DNA from: an uncultured Flavobacteriales bacterium
Lineage (GTDB): Bacteria > Bacteroidota > Bacteroidia > Flavobacteriales_D > Crocinitomicaceae
Direction of reading: 5' to 3'
NCBI GenBank assembly: GCA_905478665.1
Contig: CAJQJL010000114.1
Span: forward strand, 1 to 64,000
DNA length: 64,000 nt
The notes beneath the pieces were generated by a model. That model saw nothing but the letters and a program-made list of their open reading frames with translations, was not told where the DNA came from and did not search any database. The position numbers and the translations under genes were made by a program. Shown piece by piece: positions 14,186 to 24,172 of this stretch; positions within the stretch are counted from its first letter, which is position 1, and every line of letters starts with the position of its first letter.

Positions 14186-14865
14186 TGCAAACATTCATTC
14201 TACATCTAGAAACAGCAACAAAAGTGTGTTCAGTTGCTCTTTCAAATAACGGTAAGCTTATCGCGCAGAAGGAATCTCAAGAGGATGGCTATGCGCACGG
14301 TGAAAATTTGAATCTCTTTATTGAGGATGTGTTGGCTCAGGCTGGAATTTCAGCGAAAGAGTTGTCAGCAGTATCACTTGCTTCTGGTCCAGGTTCGTAT
14401 ACAGGTTTAAGAATTGGGGCAGCAACAGCAAAGGCATTATGTTATGCCTTGGGAATACCGTTAATTGCAATTGATGCCCTCACAAGCTTGAGTGCATTGG
14501 CTAGAACGAAATATCCTAATCAGAATTTGTGTGCTGTGATTGATGCACGTCGAATGGAGGTTTACAATCTAATACTTGACAGCAATGACGTTCCATTCAA
14601 GAAGATCTCAGCAGATATCATTGATTATGATTCTTATTCTGAACACGAACCCTTTGTTTGTTTTGGCGACGGTGCTGAGAAATTGATGGATCTCTGGCAG
14701 GACAAAAATTGCTCATTTGATCTGAGCATTAAATCTTCCGCTAAAGGACAGGTTGAATTGGCCTTTCAAAAATTTGAACAATCAGAATTTGAAGATGTCG
14801 CCTATTGGGAGCCATTTTATTTGAAAGATTTTATCGCTGGCAAGAAGTCAACTTCAGTAAAGTGA
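14185..14865 (+). CDS. tsaB: tRNA threonylcarbamoyladenosine biosynthesis protein TsaB
   Basis: 'ILHLETATKVCSVALSNNGKLI', 'SLASGPGSYTGLRIGAATAKALCYALGIPLIAIDAL'; GTG start overlapping the upstream stop. Confidence 0.93.
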   Translation: MQTFILHLETATKVCSVALSNNGKLIAQKESQEDGYAHGENLNLFIEDVLAQAGISAKELSAVSLASGPGSYTGLRIGAATAKALCYALGIPLIAIDALTSLSALARTKYPNQNLCAVIDARRMEVYNLILDSNDVPFKKISADIIDYDSYSEHEPFVCFGDGAEKLMDLWQDKNCSFDLSIKSSAKGQVELAFQKFEQSEFEDVAYWEPFYLKDFIAGKKSTSVK

Positions 14866-15588
14866 TTCTAAAAACTGTTCTTCAGTTCCCTTGCTAATAG
14901 CATTCAAAAAAGCAGATCCGATAATGGCACCATCGGCAACTTCGTAAACGTTTTCAACGTCACGTCTTGTTTTAATTCCAAAGCCAATGAAAAGTGGTGT
15001 AGTGCTGCACAATTCTTTTATTCGTTTGAATAATTTTTTATCCATACTAAGATCATTTTTTGATCCAGTAGTAGAATTGGATGAGACTAAATAGACAAAA
15101 CTCTTTCTACATAATTTCGCGATTCGTTGAATTCGTTCGTCATCCGTTTTTGGAGTAATTAAAAAACATGGATAGACTTTATATTTTTCAAATAGGGATT
15201 GATAAAAACGTTCGTAGATCTCTAAACTCATGTCGGGTAGAATTACGGTTTGAACCTTTACTTCTTGGCATTTCTTTAAAAATAGTTCCAGGCCGAATGC
15301 GATCACGGGATTTACATACCCCATCATAACAATTGGGATATTCATCTTACGCATACTGAGTTGTTCAAAGAGAATCTCCAGGTTCATTCCATTTTTTAGC
15401 GCTATCCGACTGGTTTCTTGAATCATTGGCCCATCTGCCATCGGGTCTGAAAATGGTATGCCAACTTCAATGAAATCGACTCCTTGTGTTGAGAGCACCG
15501 AAATTTGATCATTTAAACTTTCTACGTTTGGGTAGCCAGCTGTAGTAAAGATGCTTAGTTGCTTATGTTTTTTTACAAATACATTCAT
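14854..15588 (-). CDS. trpA: tryptophan synthase alpha chain
   Basis: 'FTTAGYPNVESL', 'VDFIEVGIPFSDPMADGPMIQ', 'GFGIKTRRDV'. Confidence 0.95.
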   Translation of the reverse strand: MNVFVKKHKQLSIFTTAGYPNVESLNDQISVLSTQGVDFIEVGIPFSDPMADGPMIQETSRIALKNGMNLEILFEQLSMRKMNIPIVMMGYVNPVIAFGLELFLKKCQEVKVQTVILPDMSLEIYERFYQSLFEKYKVYPCFLITPKTDDERIQRIAKLCRKSFVYLVSSNSTTGSKNDLSMDKKLFKRIKELCSTTPLFIGFGIKTRRDVENVYEVADGAIIGSAFLNAISKGTEEQFLESLY

Positions 15589-15590
15589 TG

Positions 15591-16781
15591 CTAGAAATAT
15601 TGCTTATACGTTGCCATGTCCTTGTCTCCTCTCCCTGATAAATTAACAACAACTATATCCGATTTAAACAGTTCGATTTTATCCAAGGCAGCAAGCGCAT
15701 GGGCACTTTCTAGCGCAGGGATAATTCCCTCTGTCTTTGTTAACTCTCGCGCCGCAAATAATGCTTCTTCATCCGTAACGGAAGTTGCTTTCGTTCTCCC
15801 CTCCTTGATTGAGTGAGCATGCAATGGACCTATTCCTGGATAGTCTAACCCTGCTGAAATGGAATATGGTTCAATAATTTGTCCATGTGCATTCTGCATT
15901 AGTAGCGTCATACTTCCATGAATGACACCTTGGCTCCCAAGCATTGAGGTTGCTGCTGAGGCACCGCTTTTAAGACCTTTTCCAGCGGCTTCTACAGCGA
16001 TTAATTCCACTGTCTCTTCTTCGTAGAAATGATAAAATGCACCTGCTGCATTGCTCCCACCTCCAACACATGCGATCACTTTTGTAGGGAGTTCATTTCC
16101 TGTTTTTTCAAGAAGTTGAATGCGCATTTCTTCAGAAATAATGGATTGAAAATCAGTAACAATCATCGGGTAGGGGTGAGGTCCGACAACACTTCCAATG
16201 AGGTAATAAGCATCAGGATGGTTAATCCAATAACGGATTGCTTCGTTTGTCGCATCTTTCAGGGTTTTACTTCCGCTTTTAGCAGGTATAACCTCCGCAC
16301 CTAAAAATTTCATCCGTTGAACGTTGGGAGCTTGTCTTTCAATGTCAATTTCTCCCATGTACACAATACATTTCAAATTCATCAACGCGCTAGCTGTAGC
16401 GGTCGCGACGCCGTGTTGACCTGCTCCTGTTTCAGCGACAACGGTTGTTTTACCCATTTTTTTTGCGAGTAATATTTGTCCCAAGGCATTGTTTATTTTG
16501 TGAGCACCAGTATGATTCAAATCTTCTCGTTTCAGATAAATGGAACAGGAGTGTTTAATACTTAATTTCTCAGAATAGTAGAGAGGAGTGGGTCGACCTA
16601 CGTAGTCTTTTAAGAGAGTTATATATTCTTCCTTAAAAGAAGGAGTGTCTTTAACCTGCAAATAGAATTTTTCCAGTTCTTCGATGTTTGGACGAAGTAG
16701 TTCGGGGACAAACGCACCTCCATACTCGCCATAAAACCCCATTTCATCGGGTCGAGTGTGTTTAGTTGTTCTTAATTCCAT
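15591..16781 (-). CDS. trpB: tryptophan synthase beta chain
   Basis: '[13 protein letters not shown]', '[20 protein letters not shown]', '[15 protein letters not shown]', '[10 protein letters not shown]'. Confidence 0.97.
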
Positions 16782-17361
16782 CTATAAAGTGCTTAATGAG
16801 TTTTACGTTTTTGTTGCCAGGTCCAATTTCAAAACCACTGTTAATATCAACTCCTGCAAAGGCTGAATTTTCGATTTTACGAATTCGTTCAATGGAAGAA
16901 TGAGTGATGCCACCGCTTAAAAAGAAAGGTGTTGAGAGCTTGTATTGGTTCAAAATTTTCCAGTTGAATTGTTGTCCAGATCCTCCGTGCTTGGCTGTTT
17001 TCGTATCGAACAAGTAATAATCAGCAGTTCCTTCATAGTTGTGTAGAGAGTTGAAATTGAATTTTTCAGACACGCCAAATGCCTTTATTACGGTAATTCT
17101 ATATCGCAATATTGCGATATTGTTTGGCGATTCATTTCCATGCAATTGAACGGCGTCTAACTGATCACGTTCAATTATTTCCAAAATCTTTTCAGGGGAT
17201 TCATTTACAAAAACGCCAACACGTTTCGCGCCGCTATTTTTAGGTGGATTACTGACAAACCTAGGTGATTTTGAGTAGTAGATAAACCCAACGAAATCAC
17301 TGATTTTGGAGATAGAGTCAATCTGTTCTGGAATTCGAAGTCCGCAAACTTTTATCAACAT
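16762..17361 (-). CDS. trpF: phosphoribosylanthranilate isomerase
   Basis: 'LIKVCGLR', '[10 protein letters not shown]', 'FLSGGI', '[16 protein letters not shown]'. Confidence 0.93.
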
Positions 17362-18149
17362 ACCTTAAGAATTTTGGATGGATTAATTGATTGAATAAAC
17401 TCAGAAGGCCTCTCCATTTTTAATATGCTCTCACCAATTAGCGCACCTTTGTATCCAACTTTTGACAGATGAAGTAGATCTGAGCGGTCGCGAATCCCTG
17501 ATTCTGAAATGCAAAGTATATCATTGGGAAGAAAGTCGAATAGGTTAATTGACGCGCTAAGATCTGTTTTTTGCAAGTGAAGGTTCCTATTGTTGACACC
17601 AATCAGATCCACCTGATCGTTGATTTTTGCCAAGTTCTTCCGATCATGACATTCCATGAGGACTTCAAGTCCCAGTTGCTGTGCCATAATAGTCAAGTGC
17701 AATGCTTCTTCTTTACTCAGTACCTCAGCAATAAGCAATATAGCATCAGCACCTATTGCTTTTGATTCAAAAAGTTGAAATTCGTCAACAATGAATTCTT
17801 TGCGTAAAATGGGGATAGAAACGGCTCCCCTTAACTCAACTAGATCATTTGTTGACCCTCCAAAAAAGGTGGAATCAGTGAGACAAGATATTCCAGCTAC
17901 ATTCGCTTGGGCGTATTTAGTGCCAAGGTCAGTGACATTGATGTTCATATTGATCTTTCCTGCACTGGGCGACTTTCGCTTGATTTCTGCTATGATTCCA
18001 AATTCTTGTTCTTCAATTTTTTGTCGCAAAGAATAGGTTTCTCGGTCGAAATAGGGTGAGTTTTCGAAGTCGCGATAGGTGAATTTTTCCCTGAGCAATT
18101 GTACTTCTTTCCGTTTTTGCTCGATGATGGTATCCAATATTGTTTTCAT
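17355..18149 (-). CDS. trpC: indole-3-glycerol phosphate synthase
   Basis: 'IIAEIKRKSPSAGKI', 'ISCLTDSTFFGGS', 'LRKEFIVDEFQLFESKAIGADAILLIAE', 'IGVNNRNL'. Confidence 0.95.
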   Translation of the reverse strand: MKTILDTIIEQKRKEVQLLREKFTYRDFENSPYFDRETYSLRQKIEEQEFGIIAEIKRKSPSAGKINMNINVTDLGTKYAQANVAGISCLTDSTFFGGSTNDLVELRGAVSIPILRKEFIVDEFQLFESKAIGADAILLIAEVLSKEEALHLTIMAQQLGLEVLMECHDRKNLAKINDQVDLIGVNNRNLHLQKTDLSASINLFDFLPNDILCISESGIRDRSDLLHLSKVGYKGALIGESILKMERPSEFIQSINPSKILKVC

Positions 18150-18151
18150 AC

Positions 18152-19129
18152 TTATTTCTTTAGGAGTTTACGTGCTTCGCCGCTTTTAATGAAGTTTTGT
18201 GCCAATTGAAATAGTTCATTTAGTTCTTTTTCGGGTTCAAATAGCTGAAGCGCAATTGCGACATTGGCACTGACAACATGGTTGTGTGCTTCGGTTCCTT
18301 TCCCACTAAGAATTGCACGGACGATATCCGACGCTTCCCGAACTGAGTTTCCAGAAAAGAGACTTGAAGGGTTGATTTTTTTTACATTGAATGAATTATA
18401 GTCAACAATGGTATCAACATGCTTACCAAAAATGCGTGTGCTATCCGTTAACGTAATCTCATCGTAACAATCTAATCCGTAGACGACGCGAAAGTCGGTA
18501 CGTTCATCCTTAAGAAGGTGCTGATAGATTTTAGCTAACTCAAGTGAATACGTCCCCGTAAGTTGATACTTTGGTTGCACTGGGTTTACGAGTGGACCAA
18601 GGTTGTTGAAGATTGTTCGAACCCCAAGGTTTGCTCTGATTCCACCAACTTTTTTTAATGTAGGATGAAAAAGAGGGGCATGTAAAAAACAAATATTGTT
18701 GGTCTCCAAACTTCGATTCAATTCGTCGGTATCTTTACTAAATGGAAAGCCAAGTTCTTCCAGTACGTTAGATGATCCACACATAGAACTCACACCATAA
18801 TTTCCGTGCTTGATAACACGTTTACCCATGGCAGCCATAATCAAAGCTGAGGTCGTCGATATGTTGAATGTATTTTTCCCGTCCCCACCTGTTCCACACA
18901 AATCAATGGCTTCTGAAGCATCAATTTTAGGTGCCAAACTCAGTTCGAGAAGCGCCTGCCGAAAGCCTTTCAGTTCTTCCAGCGCAACACCACGCATTTG
19001 AATTCCAACAAGGATACCGCTTACGGTTTCATTTGATAGACGATCTTCCGCAACAGAATGTATAAAATCACTTGCTTCTTCGAATGAAAGAGCCATTTTT
19101 GCGATTGTTTTTTCAAGTAAAAAATTCAT
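18152..19129 (-). CDS. trpD: anthranilate phosphoribosyltransferase
   Basis: 'LCGTGGDGKNTFNISTTSALIMAAMGKRVIKHGNYGVSSMCGSSNVLEELG'. Confidence 0.95.
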   Translation of the reverse strand: MNFLLEKTIAKMALSFEEASDFIHSVAEDRLSNETVSGILVGIQMRGVALEELKGFRQALLELSLAPKIDASEAIDLCGTGGDGKNTFNISTTSALIMAAMGKRVIKHGNYGVSSMCGSSNVLEELGFPFSKDTDELNRSLETNNICFLHAPLFHPTLKKVGGIRANLGVRTIFNNLGPLVNPVQPKYQLTGTYSLELAKIYQHLLKDERTDFRVVYGLDCYDEITLTDSTRIFGKHVDTIVDYNSFNVKKINPSSLFSGNSVREASDIVRAILSGKGTEAHNHVVSANVAIALQLFEPEKELNELFQLAQNFIKSGEARKLLKK

Positions 19130-19133
19130 CTTT

Positions 19134-19712
19134 TTAATTTTTCGGAGTGATTGATTGAATCCAGTTCTGAATCATAGTTCTACCGTGTGGAGTTAGAATC
19201 GATTCTGGGTGGAACTGTACGCCTGTGATTGGTAAGTCGGCGTGTTGCAAAGCCATAATTTCCTTAGTGGAAGAGCGAGCCGTTACTTCAAGCACGGGAG
19301 AAATGTTTTGATCAACGGACCAGCTATGATATCTGCCAACCTCAAATTTTTCAGGAATTGAATCGAATAGGTAGTTCGTTGAAAAATGTGTAATCATACT
19401 CGATTTTCCATGGTATACATCATCTTGTCTAATCAGTTCGCATCCGAAATATTCTGAAATTGCCTGATGTCCTAAACAAACTCCCAAAATGGGTTTCTGC
19501 GTGTGGTAGATATCGATAATCTTCATTAGGTCTCCAGCTTCGGAAGGAACCCCAGGTCCAGGAGAGAGGAGTATTCCATCTGCGTCTATTAATTCTGTAT
19601 AATCAACCTTGTCATTGCGGAAGATGATAACTTCTCCCGAACAACTTTCTTCAACGTAGCGAGCCAAATTGTAGACGAAGGAATCGTAGTTATCAATGAT
19701 TATTAATTTCAT
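19134..19712 (-). CDS. trpG: anthranilate synthase component II (glutamine amidotransferase)
   Basis: 'IIDNYDSFVYNLARYVEE', 'LSPGPGVPSEAG', 'GVCLGHQAISEYFG', 'GVQFHPESILTPHG'. Confidence 0.95.
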   Translation of the reverse strand: MKLIIIDNYDSFVYNLARYVEESCSGEVIIFRNDKVDYTELIDADGILLSPGPGVPSEAGDLMKIIDIYHTQKPILGVCLGHQAISEYFGCELIRQDDVYHGKSSMITHFSTNYLFDSIPEKFEVGRYHSWSVDQNISPVLEVTARSSTKEIMALQHADLPITGVQFHPESILTPHGRTMIQNWIQSITPKN

Positions 19713-21127
19713 GAGAGGTGTTGTTTTTTTGAAGGTTGAAACTGAAGGCTGGTCGCTTGAATGGCTTTCCGAATTGCACGCAATTTATGATGAACTTCCT
19801 GCACTTCTCGATCAGGCTCAGAGTCGATAACGATTCCAGCACCTGCCCTGTAGTGGAGCGTGTTGTTTTGACTTAAAATACTCCTGATGACAATAGCCAT
19901 ATTGAGATTTGACTTTGCTGTCAACTGTCCAATGGCTCCACCATAAAAAGATCGGGGAGCATCTTCCAGTTGGTCGATCAGTTCAAGCGCCCTTGGTTTT
20001 GGTGTCCCCGATAATGTTCCAGCGGGAAACGAGTTGCACAGTGCTTCGAAGTTGTTTTGCTCTTTTAAATTGCCAACGACCTTTGATACAAGGTGAGTTA
20101 CGTGGCTGAAGCTTTGTACTTCTTTGTACGATTCGAGTTGAATTTCAGTACAGTTCCGACTGAGATCGTTCCGTGCTAAATCAACAAGCATTGTGTGTTC
20201 TGCATTTTCCTTTTCATCTTTTAGGAGGAACTCTAATTGTTGATCATCTGTTTCTTTAATTCCCGTTTTCGGAACAGTTCCCGCAATGGGGTGAATTTCT
20301 GCTCGACCATTCTTTATGACTAATTGAGCCTCGGGTGAAGAGCCAAACACGCGGTAGTTTTCGAAATCAAAATAAAAAAGATAGGGTGATGGATTTAGTT
20401 GACGTAAGTGCCGATATACCTGAAAGTCATCACCAAAAAATGACTGCTCGAAAGCATTGGACAGAACGAGTTGGAAAACATTTCCTTGTCTGCAATGCTC
20501 TATTCCCTGAGTGACCTTCTTGCGAAATGTTTCGTCTGAGAATAAGGCGCGTTCATTTCCGAAAAGTTCAAAAGGTAAGTTGAGTGCATTCTCCGTTTGG
20601 ATGAGGTCTTGAATTCCCCGTATGAAAAAGGTTTTGTCAGTGCTGTTTTCTAGGATGAATCCTTCGCTAGTGAAATGATCAATGACTATCACGTACCGAA
20701 AAATGAACAGATGAAGAAGTGGTAGCTCATCCTTCGTTTTTGGAGATTCCAAATGCGTCTCGTCTTGTTGGGTGAATTCAAATCCTAACCTCCCGAAAAA
20801 ACCATTGAACGATGATTCGACCTCCTTGGTTGAGCTATCAAAATTGTAGGAATTGAGAACTTCCTGAACCTGCGAACTATGAGATTTATTGGATGCCAAC
20901 TCTATTTCTCGTGTATGTCCAAGTTCTTGGATTGAGAGGGTTGTGTTGTTTCGTTGTACCTCTACAATGGGTTCTAACCCGATATAGGATTTACTGTTTT
21001 GTCTAGAGTGGTAATCATTACTTTCCAAAAGACAGGTTTTGCGGTAGACGTTGCGAAGTGCCATGTATAGCTTCACAGGGGTGTGGGTATCTGCGTTAAA
21101 TGTGGTTATGCGAGTATGTATATTCAT
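19709..21127 (-). CDS. trpE: anthranilate synthase component I
   Basis: Chorismate-binding motifs 'CRQGNVFQLVLSNAFEQ', 'PIAGTVPKTG', 'LVDLARNDLSRNC', 'SFPAGTLSGTPKPRALELIDQLE'. Confidence 0.95.
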   Translation of the reverse strand: MNIHTRITTFNADTHTPVKLYMALRNVYRKTCLLESNDYHSRQNSKSYIGLEPIVEVQRNNTTLSIQELGHTREIELASNKSHSSQVQEVLNSYNFDSSTKEVESSFNGFFGRLGFEFTQQDETHLESPKTKDELPLLHLFIFRYVIVIDHFTSEGFILENSTDKTFFIRGIQDLIQTENALNLPFELFGNERALFSDETFRKKVTQGIEHCRQGNVFQLVLSNAFEQSFFGDDFQVYRHLRQLNPSPYLFYFDFENYRVFGSSPEAQLVIKNGRAEIHPIAGTVPKTGIKETDDQQLEFLLKDEKENAEHTMLVDLARNDLSRNCTEIQLESYKEVQSFSHVTHLVSKVVGNLKEQNNFEALCNSFPAGTLSGTPKPRALELIDQLEDAPRSFYGGAIGQLTAKSNLNMAIVIRSILSQNNTLHYRAGAGIVIDSEPDREVQEVHHKLRAIRKAIQATSLQFQPSKKQHLS

Positions 21128-21156: not shown

Positions 21157-21190
21157 TAAAAAAACGGCTTGTCTGGTGTGACAAGCCGTT
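21157..21190 (-). terminator. trp operon attenuator terminator
   Basis: Minus strand AACGGCTTGTC-acacca-GACAAGCCGTTTTTTTATA: perfect 11-bp stem plus T7, lying between leader ORF and trpE start (21127). Confidence 0.9.
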
Positions 21191-21215
21191 CTATGAATAG
21201 GTTTCAAAATTCAAA

Positions 21216-21284
21216 CTAACGCCAGGTACACCAACTATTTGTTGAGTACCACTGCCAATTTGTATTTGTAACGCGTATCTTCAT
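21216..21284 (-). CDS. trpL: trp leader peptide MKIRVTNTNWQWYSTNSWCTWR
   Basis: 23-codon ORF on minus strand with 4 TGG codons (10, 12, 18, 21), 26 nt upstream of the attenuator hairpin. Confidence 0.85.
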   Translation of the reverse strand: MKIRVTNTNWQWYSTNSWCTWR

Positions 21285-21301
21285 TTTGTGCGATTGCGGT
21301 A

Positions 21302-21334
21302 CAAAGGTTGATAATAATTTTTGATTTCAACAAA
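21302..21334 (-). promoter_or_regulatory. trp operon promoter
   Basis: Minus strand TTTG ... N21 ... AACCTTTG (7/8 to TAnnTTTG), about 18 nt upstream of the leader ATG. Confidence 0.55.
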
Positions 21335-21439
21335 TAAAATTTCAAACATTTTGGGTTTACCTACGGTAAAGAAATTTCGCGAGAACATTTTTTTAGGATG
21401 ATTAGGAATTGAATAAAATAATTTGAAAGATTTGTCCAC

Positions 21440-21505
21440 ATGAAAATGCAAAAAACACATTCAAGCTTTTTTTACTGGTATGGATCACCATGCTTCAGGA
21501 GATGA
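21440..21505 (+). CDS. aromatic amino-acid leader peptide MKMQKTHSSFFYWYGSPCFRR
   Basis: 22-codon ORF with consecutive Phe-Phe-Tyr-Trp-Tyr codons (TTT TTT TAC TGG TAT), followed by a terminator hairpin and the shikimate operon. Confidence 0.82.
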   Translation: MKMQKTHSSFFYWYGSPCFRR

Positions 21506-21524
21506 TATGCGCTAACTATACGTG

Positions 21525-21554
21525 AAAAGGTCTCCATATGGGGACTTTTTTTTT
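21525..21554 (+). terminator. attenuator terminator of the aromatic operon
   Basis: GGTCTCC-atat-GGGGACT (one G-U in core), extended by A/T pairs, followed by T-run; located before the 92-aa ORF and aroF-like gene. Confidence 0.8.
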
Positions 21555-21571: not shown

Positions 21572-21850
21572 ATGGTAATAGAAATTAATGAATTGGGATT
21601 GATTGGAGGTATTGAAGAGATTGACGTCCACCGTTTGAGACTTGAGAGAATTGATGTTGTGAGTCAAGCCAATATTTCTGAAAATGCCGAGATTATTCGG
21701 GTTGACTTGACAGATTACAAAGAACAATTGAATACCTTTAAGCTACTGTTAGAGGATCAAGAAATGGAGCGTATTTACAAGTTCATTGAATGCGCAAATA
21801 CCAAGGATAGAAAGACAAACAGTGAACTAAAGATAATTGCCAAGAAATGA
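21572..21850 (+). CDS. small conserved-unknown protein, first gene of aromatic operon
   Basis: 92-aa ORF, its end overlapping the start of the next gene (21847); no family recognised. Confidence 0.6.
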   Translation: MVIEINELGLIGGIEEIDVHRLRLERIDVVSQANISENAEIIRVDLTDYKEQLNTFKLLLEDQEMERIYKFIECANTKDRKTNSELKIIAKK

Positions 21851-22923
21851 GTTTAGTCAACGAATTTGAACGCCCGATAATTATCGCAGGGCCCTGCAGT
21901 GCAGAGACTGAGGAACAAGTGATGGAAACAGCTATGCAGCTTAAGGCTGGAGGGAAAACGAGTATGTTCCGTGCGGGAATCTGGAAGCCGAGAACTCGAC
22001 CGAATTCGTTTGAGGGAATCGGAGAAGTAGGCCTTAATTGGTTGGTCAATGCTGGAAAAGCATCTGGCTTGAAAACGACAACAGAGGTTGCCAACGCGAA
22101 GCATGTTGAGTTGGCCTTGAAAGCAGGAGTAGACACGCTTTGGATCGGCGCAAGAACAACTGTGAATCCGTTTACAGTACAAGAGATAGCAGACGCATTG
22201 GAGGGGTCGAACATTCCCGTTCTAATCAAAAATCCTGTTAATCCAGATCTACAGTTGTGGTTGGGTGCTTTCGAGCGTTTTGAAAAAGCAGGATTGAATG
22301 ATTTAACAGCAATTCATAGAGGATTTTCCGTGTACAATCACGTTAAATACAGAAACGTTCCTAGTTGGGAAATTCCCATTGCGCTCAAAGAAAAACGACC
22401 AAACACGCCTGTTATTTGCGACCCAAGTCATATTACTGGAAATCGAACGTTGCTGCATGAGGTTAGTCAAAAGGCCTTGGATTTGAACTTTGAAGGGCTG
22501 ATGTTGGAAGTACATCCAGACCCTGATAATGCTTGGTCTGATGCAGCTCAACAAGTTACTCCTCAAGGCTTGAATGAAATTTTAGACACCCTAATTTTGC
22601 GTTCACATGAAGTCTCTAGTGATGTTGCGTCATTGATTAATGTTGTACGCACCAAGGTGGGGGATTTAGATGATCGCATTTTCGATTTGTTGAGTGAACG
22701 AATGAAATTAAGCGAAGAAGTTGGACGACTGAAACGTGAAAATAATATTACAATTCTCCAACAGGAGCATTGGAGACACATCATCAATCATCGTCTAGAC
22801 ACGAGCGGAGAACATCATCTCACACGGAAGTTCGTTCGAAAATTAATGGATGCAATTCATCAGGAATCCATTCGTCACCAAACTGCTGTAATGAATCCGC
22901 AAGGAAAAAAGGGCGATGAATAA
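21847..22923 (+). CDS. bifunctional 3-deoxy-7-phosphoheptulonate synthase / chorismate mutase
   Basis: 'IIAGPCSAETEEQV', 'MFRAGIWKPRTRPNSFEGIG', 'PVICDPSHITGNR', C-terminal chorismate mutase helix 'DLDDRIFDLLSERMKLSEEVGRLKRENN'. Confidence 0.95.
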   Translation: MSLVNEFERPIIIAGPCSAETEEQVMETAMQLKAGGKTSMFRAGIWKPRTRPNSFEGIGEVGLNWLVNAGKASGLKTTTEVANAKHVELALKAGVDTLWIGARTTVNPFTVQEIADALEGSNIPVLIKNPVNPDLQLWLGAFERFEKAGLNDLTAIHRGFSVYNHVKYRNVPSWEIPIALKEKRPNTPVICDPSHITGNRTLLHEVSQKALDLNFEGLMLEVHPDPDNAWSDAAQQVTPQGLNEILDTLILRSHEVSSDVASLINVVRTKVGDLDDRIFDLLSERMKLSEEVGRLKRENNITILQQEHWRHIINHRLDTSGEHHLTRKFVRKLMDAIHQESIRHQTAVMNPQGKKGDE

Positions 22924-24172
22924 GATGATTCAAGATAGCTTCCTTTCTGGAAAAGTCAGAATTCCTAGTTCCAAAAGTGATGGGCAAAGAGCACTGTTAT
23001 GTGCTGCGCTCTGTAATGGAGAAAGCGTTATCACCAATTCAGGGGACAGTGATGATGAGCTAGCCATGTTGAAAAACATTGAAAAATTGGGCGCGAAAAT
23101 TGAGCGATTAAATCCAAACCAATTAGTCGTAACGGGAGCACCGCAATTCCTTGATGGAACGACGCTAGACTGTGGAGAAAGTGGCTTAGGTTTACGACTT
23201 TTAACGAGTGTCGTCTCTACCTTTGCTGGGACAAAAAGAATTATTGGGCACGGCTCTGTATTGAAGCGACAGCACACATTTTTTGCAGATTTCTTGTCAT
23301 CGATGGGGGTTGAGTTTCTTGCGAAAGAAAATAGACTTCCCTTTGAGATGAATGGAAAATTGACTCCAGGGAATTATTCAGTTGATGGGAGCCAATCTTC
23401 TCAATACACTTCTGGATTGATCATGGCCTTTGCTTTCTTAACGGAAGATACGATCTTGACGGTTGAAAATTTGAATAGCAAGCCTTATGTTGCGATGACG
23501 CTAAAGACGTTGAAGTCATTTGGAATTGAGATTGAGCAAGAGAATTTTGAGCAGTTTACGATAAGAGGTGGACAAGAGTATTCACCAACAAATTACAACG
23601 TTGAAAGCGATTGGAGTTCAGCCAGCTATTGGTTGGCAGCTTCAGCAATTGGACATTCAGTAAAGCTTGAAGGACTCAATATTGATAGTTCGCAAGCCGA
23701 TATTGGAATGTTAGAAGCGTTGGAAATCGCAAATTGTCAGGTAACAATTAACGAAGGATCGATAACGGTTGATGGATCGAATCGAACTCCGTTTATATTC
23801 GACGCAACAGACTGTCCAGATTTGTTTCCTGCCTTAGTTTGTTTGGCGGTGTATTGTGAAGGAACGACAATCATAAAAGGCCTTAAACGCTTAGCGAATA
23901 AGGAAAGTGATCGCGGAATTGCTTTGCAAGAAGAGTTTGAAAAATTAGGTGTGAAGATTGAGCTCCGAGGAAATGAAATGCATGTTCATGGAGTTGGATA
24001 CTTGCACAATGGAAAGGTAGACGCACACAATGATCACAGAATAGCAATGTGTTTAGCGATTGCAGGTTCAAAAATTAATGGTGGTTTAACGCTAGCTGGA
24101 GCAGAGTCGGTGAGTAAAAGTTATCCTGGATTTTGGGAAGATTTTGATGCCCTAATTAAAGACGATCAGTAA
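22916..24172 (+). CDS. aroA: 3-phosphoshikimate 1-carboxyvinyltransferase
   Basis: 'GKVRIPSSKSDGQRALLCAAL', 'LDCGESGLGLRLLTSV', 'KESDRGIALQEEFEKLG', 'AHNDHRIAMCLAIAG'. Confidence 0.93.
   Translation: MNKMIQDSFLSGKVRIPSSKSDGQRALLCAALCNGESVITNSGDSDDELAMLKNIEKLGAKIERLNPNQLVVTGAPQFLDGTTLDCGESGLGLRLLTSVVSTFAGTKRIIGHGSVLKRQHTFFADFLSSMGVEFLAKENRLPFEMNGKLTPGNYSVDGSQSSQYTSGLIMAFAFLTEDTILTVENLNSKPYVAMTLKTLKSFGIEIEQENFEQFTIRGGQEYSPTNYNVESDWSSASYWLAASAIGHSVKLEGLNIDSSQADIGMLEALEIANCQVTINEGSITVDGSNRTPFIFDATDCPDLFPALVCLAVYCEGTTIIKGLKRLANKESDRGIALQEEFEKLGVKIELRGNEMHVHGVGYLHNGKVDAHNDHRIAMCLAIAGSKINGGLTLAGAESVSKSYPGFWEDFDALIKDDQ

Follow-up and report, generated by a model that had tools for sequence, protein, structure and literature searches.

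A predicted leader-peptide attenuator with mixed aromatic codons at the shared aromatic-pathway operon of Crocinitomicaceae

The operon for the entry step of aromatic amino acid synthesis in an uncultured Crocinitomicaceae bacterium is very probably controlled by a ribosome-mediated transcription attenuator of the trp/pheL type. The element lies on the plus strand of the 64,000-nucleotide stretch of DNA that was analyzed (the window), ahead of a gene for DAHP synthase fused to chorismate mutase, and its sequence, compared with those of its relatives, argues that it is a real and conserved attenuator. Leader attenuation of trp, pheA and pheST is textbook knowledge, as is the control of DAHP synthase by the repressors TyrR and TrpR and by allostery.

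Leaders, terminators and operons in the window

The features on which the analysis rests are as follows.

14854-21127, minus strand: trp operon trpE, trpG, trpD, trpC, trpF, trpB, trpA (trpE by Pfam, the other genes named from their sequences)
21158-21192, minus strand: trp-side intrinsic terminator, AGAACGGCTTGTC-acacca-GACAAGCCGTT plus T-run (sequence, relatives)
21216-21284, minus strand: trp-side leader ORF, MKIRVTNTNWQWYSTNSWCTWR, with four Trp (sequence; ORF rarity; inside a sub-threshold Bacteroid-trp match)
21419-21434, plus strand: possible Bacteroidota-type -7 promoter element, TTTG motifs just 5' of the leader ATG (sequence only)
21440-21505, plus strand: aro-side leader ORF, MKMQKTHSSFFYWYGSPCFRR (sequence; ORF rarity; counterparts in 27 other genomes)
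21498-21503, plus strand: predicted antiterminator 5' segment GGAGAU, overlapping the last leader codons and the first stop base (folding, duplex tests)
21525-21554, plus strand: aro-side intrinsic terminator, 5' arm 21525-21535, loop ATAT, 3' arm 21540-21549, T-run to 21554
21572-21850, plus strand: 92-aa ORF, first gene after the terminator, its stop overlapping the DAHP synthase start (ATGA)
21847-22923, plus strand: DAHP synthase fused to AroQ-type chorismate mutase (Pfam PF00793 and PF01817)
22916-24172, plus strand: aroA, EPSP synthase (Pfam PF00275)

The aro-side leader runs from an ATG at 21440 to a TGA stop at 21503-21505 and, like leaders of the trpL/pheL type, is a short ORF with clustered end-product codons, the candidate sensing codons being TTT TTT TAC TGG TAT (FFYWY) at 21467-21481. 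The 15-mer that encodes FFYWY occurs a single time in the whole assembly. The window contains 912 ATG-started ORFs of 10-35 aa, a set in which the aro-side leader is listed twice because of an internal ATG. Only this leader and the divergent trp leader contain at least five consecutive aromatic codons or at least four Trp codons, and a run of at least five aromatics including Trp arose in just 0.2% of dinucleotide shuffles of the intergenic region. To judge from these sequence statistics, the anatomy of the leader is not a chance assembly. The -7 promoter element upstream is assigned tentatively; TAnnTTTG lies at most 30 nt upstream of 8 of the 28 aro leaders described below, against a background of 1.5%.

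Between the leader ORF and the first structural gene, again as in trpL/pheL systems, stands an intrinsic terminator, AAAAGGTCTCC-ATAT-GGGGACTTTT followed by a T-run, of about -12 kcal/mol. A consensus terminator scan listed no site at 21525-21554, which we treat as a limit of the scan because the 10-bp stem and nine T are plain in the sequence. The first-pass annotation had located the leader ORF, the FFYWY codons, the stop, the terminator, GGAGA and TCTCC correctly, and had the terminator followed by DAHP synthase/chorismate mutase and aroA; both genes stand, but the first gene 3' of the terminator is the 92-aa ORF that it missed, for which no homologue was found in the fetched relatives, Pfam or NCBIfam.

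Also overlooked at that stage was the trp operon's own attenuator (minus strand, 21158-21284). Its leader and strong terminator precede trpE, the head of trpEGDCFBA, and since they occupy the same 444-bp intergenic region as the aro leader, the two attenuators stand back to back. A GGCTTGTC-type terminator is present on the trp side in most relatives. Rfam family RF01692 (Bacteroid-trp) matches 21180-21304 on the minus strand at 34.8 bits, under the cut-off of 49, and the trp-side leaders of three relatives (L006, L021, L033) score above that cut-off, so that the trp-side leader of the window is a diverged relative rather than a filed member of the family.

Conservation and alternative RNA pairings

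The same anatomy, consisting of a short ORF with a Trp or aromatic cluster, a terminator and an antiterminator segment at the stop codon, recurs in 27 other Crocinitomicaceae genomes, 5' of the orthologous gene for DAHP synthase-chorismate mutase, giving 28 aro leaders with that of the window. As with trpL/pheL-type leaders, the arrangement is kept in relatives while the sequences have become very different. The aromatic clusters include NFDFW (G075), TWFW (G135), NWLW (G038), NWQW (G099, G138), FWWWF (G079, G009), YWFWF (G157), FFWFW (G139) and NFYFFWY (G042). An absence of aromatic-rich ORFs and terminators from orthologous regions, which would have counted against the original proposal, was thus not what we found. 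In all 28 leaders the terminator stem follows the last Trp codon by 46-55 nt, and the divergent trpE is kept in every one of these genomes except G091; where the gene has moved away from trpE, relatives mostly showed no aro leader.

The alternative pairing at the heart of the predicted switch involves GGAGA (21498-21502) and TCTCC (21531-21535), and is one pair longer than had been noted: GGAGAU (21498-21503) with GUCUCC (21530-21535). When the window's leader transcript was folded from the edge of a ribosome stalled at the first Phe, the Trp or the last Tyr codon, this pairing had a probability of about 1 in the state before the 3' arm emerges, and with the ribosome placed at the stop it was lost. 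A stall at either Tyr codon would leave GGAGA exposed; one at the Phe codon close to the ORF's 3' end (21494) would not, because that codon lies too near GGAGA. The full terminator is thermodynamically favored in every ribosome state, and the switch must therefore depend on kinetics.

Among the relatives, the duplex between the leader (the stretch between ribosome edge and terminator) and the 5' arm of the terminator is stronger than in dinucleotide shuffles, with a mean z of -0.94 and a combined z of -5.0 over 28 leaders that are not all independent. The pairing segment starts at most 4 nt from the end of the stop codon in 20 of 28 leaders, where 8.0 were expected; weighted by cluster, the figure is 5.5 of 9 against 2.6 expected, a value reached in 1 of 300 shuffles. 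A stricter comparison, in which each leader's own segment was set against those of other clusters by swapping arms, gave a weak result (P = 0.085), and no convincing antiterminator was seen in L118, L154, L169 or L138. A terminator-excluding antiterminator hidden by a ribosome at the stop codon, as in trpL/pheL, is thus found in the window and supported across the relatives, weakly in the strictest control. The GGAGA/TCTCC switch proposed by the first-pass annotation, and the attenuator reading built on it, gain support from the shared anatomy in 28 genomes, the position of the pairing at the stop codon and the folding of ribosome states.

Two explanations that dispense with a ribosome sensor were considered. 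The terminator could end another transcript and the ORF be spurious, a reading to which the failure of the terminator scan lends something; but the arrangement recurs in 28 genomes with fixed geometry, such ORFs are rare in the window, and the upstream neighbor is the divergent trpE, so that no same-strand gene stands upstream to be terminated. We regard it as strongly disfavored and highly improbable. Equally improbable is a metabolite- or tRNA-binding element, such as a T-box, a riboswitch or a TRAP-like site. Terminator/antiterminator pairs do occur in those systems too, yet what is conserved in this short intergenic sequence is the ORF itself, and no described RNA family, T-boxes and riboswitches included, was matched at cut-off in the region. 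Membership of the aro leader in an Rfam family was likewise rejected, no family scoring above its cut-off: Bacteroid-trp (RF01692) had no plus-strand match in the window, and Phe_leader (RF01859) reached 22.7 bits (E 0.35) against a gathering cut-off of 55.

For the favored attenuator we infer translation, stalling and termination in vivo from these elements and pairings, in the following sequence. RNA polymerase would start just 5' of the leader ORF with a ribosome following behind it. Where charged Phe-, Tyr- or Trp-tRNA is scarce, the ribosome would stall in FFYWY and cover nothing past about 21495, leaving GGAGAU to pair with GUCUCC; this antiterminator would preclude the terminator, and the 92-aa ORF, DAHP synthase-chorismate mutase and aroA would be transcribed. 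With ample charged tRNA the ribosome would reach the stop at 21503 and cover GGAGAU, the terminator would form and transcription would end. Because the trp operon has a Trp-only attenuator of its own, Trp shortage should open both directions; Phe shortage, and perhaps that of Tyr, should open the shared-pathway side only.

In Bacteroidales, Pontibacter and Nafulsella, too, aromatic leaders precede DAHP synthase-chorismate mutase operons that often include pheA. At some loci a single pheA or DAHP synthase operon is preceded by tandem aromatic leaders, every leader having a terminator of its own (L208, 5' of pheA in G153, and L051, L052, L053, L060, L061, L062 and L065); in a Pontibacter example a YYSYYYF leader is followed by an FYYYYFY leader. 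G007 (L223, with L173 entered alongside) showed neither an aro leader nor a terminator next to trpE; its pheA-operon leader includes a Trp codon (HFYWYM), which would fit a shift of sensing from one operon to the other. Record CP034120.1 (L042), titled Glaciecola amylolytica and by that name a gammaproteobacterium, holds the same Bacteroidota locus, near-Fluviicola in sequence, and is probably a mislabelled genome.

Amino acids sensed at the shared step

Trp is the only residue present in all 28 aro leaders, most of which have two or three; Phe occurs in 19 of 28, and Tyr codons are about half as numerous as Phe codons. The leaders form three classes, each in keeping with the operon that it precedes. 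Trp and Phe plus Tyr account, respectively, for 17.6% and 5.0% of codons in trpE leaders (the Trp class), 11.4% and 13.4% in aro leaders (Trp with Phe/Tyr), and 1.9% and 27.3% in pheA-operon leaders (Phe/Tyr). The aro class is intermediate, as expected of a sensor for the shared pathway, and Trp is its constant part. Of the five codons in the window's sensing stretch, four are Phe or Tyr and one is Trp, and by sequence the window, G075 and G042 represent the Phe/Tyr-rich end of a mostly Trp-led family. The leader closest in style to that of the window is the FYFFWY leader of G042, where prephenate dehydratase (pheA) sits between leader and DAHP synthase. The proposal that this attenuator integrates all three aromatic amino acids is thus supported only in part: Trp codons occur throughout, and Phe and Tyr codons, abundant as they are in the window, vary across the family. 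Of the amino acids that are really sensed, the codons point to Trp most firmly, to Phe as likely and to Tyr as uncertain.

The distribution of pathway enzymes was surveyed alongside. Across the genus, just 4 of 34 genomes had a detectable prephenate dehydratase (PF00800), and of 39 genomes tested in the family 2 had a prephenate dehydrogenase (PF02153), one of these matches scoring below cut-off. Despite their scarcity, DAHP synthase retains its fused chorismate mutase domain, perhaps for an allosteric role. A separate TIGR01361-type DAHP synthase is encoded by most genomes of the genus; in G091 (L216, 1264-2262) its gene has a KdsC-like phosphatase and an epimerase/CBS protein as neighbors, an odd setting for an enzyme of aromatic synthesis. 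Family searches of the window's assembly, which is 89% complete, found neither a prephenate dehydratase nor a second PF00793 protein. That Phe/Tyr content of the leader tracks possession of prephenate dehydratase was entertained and rejected: a raw Mann-Whitney test gave p = 0.015, and about five phylogenetically independent pairs gave no signal.

Two narrower readings keep the attenuator and restrict what it senses. One makes it a sensor of Trp only, with Phe and Tyr as tolerated aromatic drift around a conserved Trp in an operon that follows the adjacent trp operon. The universal presence of Trp fits this, as do the sensing stretches that lack Phe and Tyr (G141, G107, G156, G140), the divergent orientation of the aro operon to trpE, and the 30 of 34 genomes of the genus without detectable prephenate dehydratase, in which Trp would be the main aromatic product. 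Against it, the window has four Phe/Tyr codons to one Trp, G042 combines FYFFWY with pheA itself in the operon, and Phe plus Tyr are more frequent in aro than in trp leaders; on balance we consider it rather unlikely. The other has the attenuator answer to Phe, and to Trp, without answering to Tyr. The presence of a codon does not prove that its amino acid is sensed, since Tyr availability has no effect on the Phe-Tyr-Phe leader aroR of Corynebacterium glutamicum, which lies 5' of aroF as the Phe-responsive control of a DAHP synthase operon (Neshat et al. 2014, summarized in PMC11802643). The window's genome also has a gene of the phenylalanine-hydroxylase family, by which Tyr can come from Phe, so that Tyr shortage would follow Phe shortage. 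This reading is a tentative possibility, and is opposed by the location of both Tyr codons where a stall would free GGAGA.

The reading that one leader ORF senses all three aromatics at the common entry step is plausible while falling somewhat short of probable. It would place this sensor back to back with a Trp-only trp attenuator and alongside the Phe/Tyr leaders of pheA in relatives, the codons being re-tuned between lineages as operon and pathway content changes, with no need for a repressor.

Relation to known attenuators and significance

As in E. coli trpL and pheL (pheA), the element combines a short ORF of cognate codons with an antiterminator and a terminator that exclude each other, and termination is favored once a ribosome reaches the stop codon. 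It differs in mixing Phe, Tyr and Trp codons, in acting on DAHP synthase, the first shared step, and on aroA instead of on a terminal branch, in an antiterminator segment that overlaps the stop codon, and in that no Shine-Dalgarno sequence was seen at the aro-side leader. The E. coli ilvGMEDA leader carries codons for several end products of a branched pathway, and resembles the aro leader in serving several end products from one peptide, the pathway there being branched-chain and here aromatic. The ilvGMEDA operon is listed as attenuated (PMC1183508). C. glutamicum aroR is likewise an attenuator with aromatic codons at a DAHP synthase operon, but belongs to another phylum, has no Trp codon reported and is not paired with a trp attenuator. 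Bacteroid-trp describes a Bacteroidota leader before trp genes, to which the divergent minus-strand leader is related and which the plus-strand aro leader does not match. In Flavobacterium psychrophilum, of the same class (Flavobacteriia), putative leader-peptide attenuation before amino acid operons was inferred from transcript structure, and the main text names no aromatic shared-pathway leader (PMC9723704); no Bacteroidota aromatic leader appears in the main text of Naville and Gautheret's survey of premature terminators (2010). The open-access literature yielded nothing specific on aromatic leaders of Bacteroidota, and in it we found no description of an all-three-aromatic leader at the shared step or of a divergent attenuator pair, which, given that coverage, is weak evidence of novelty. 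The class of mechanism is long known; the mixed sensor and the paired divergent layout appear undescribed.

Leader-peptide attenuation appears to operate throughout a bacterial family, both at the shared step of aromatic synthesis and at each branch, with codon content that matches the operon. Which starvation opens which operon, and whether leader codons reveal the specificity of the sensor, can be tested, and the 28 sequence-diverged leaders provide material on how sensor codons evolve when branches of a pathway are lost. If the aro leader does sense all three amino acids, three classes of leader would control a branched pathway with no repressor protein needed.
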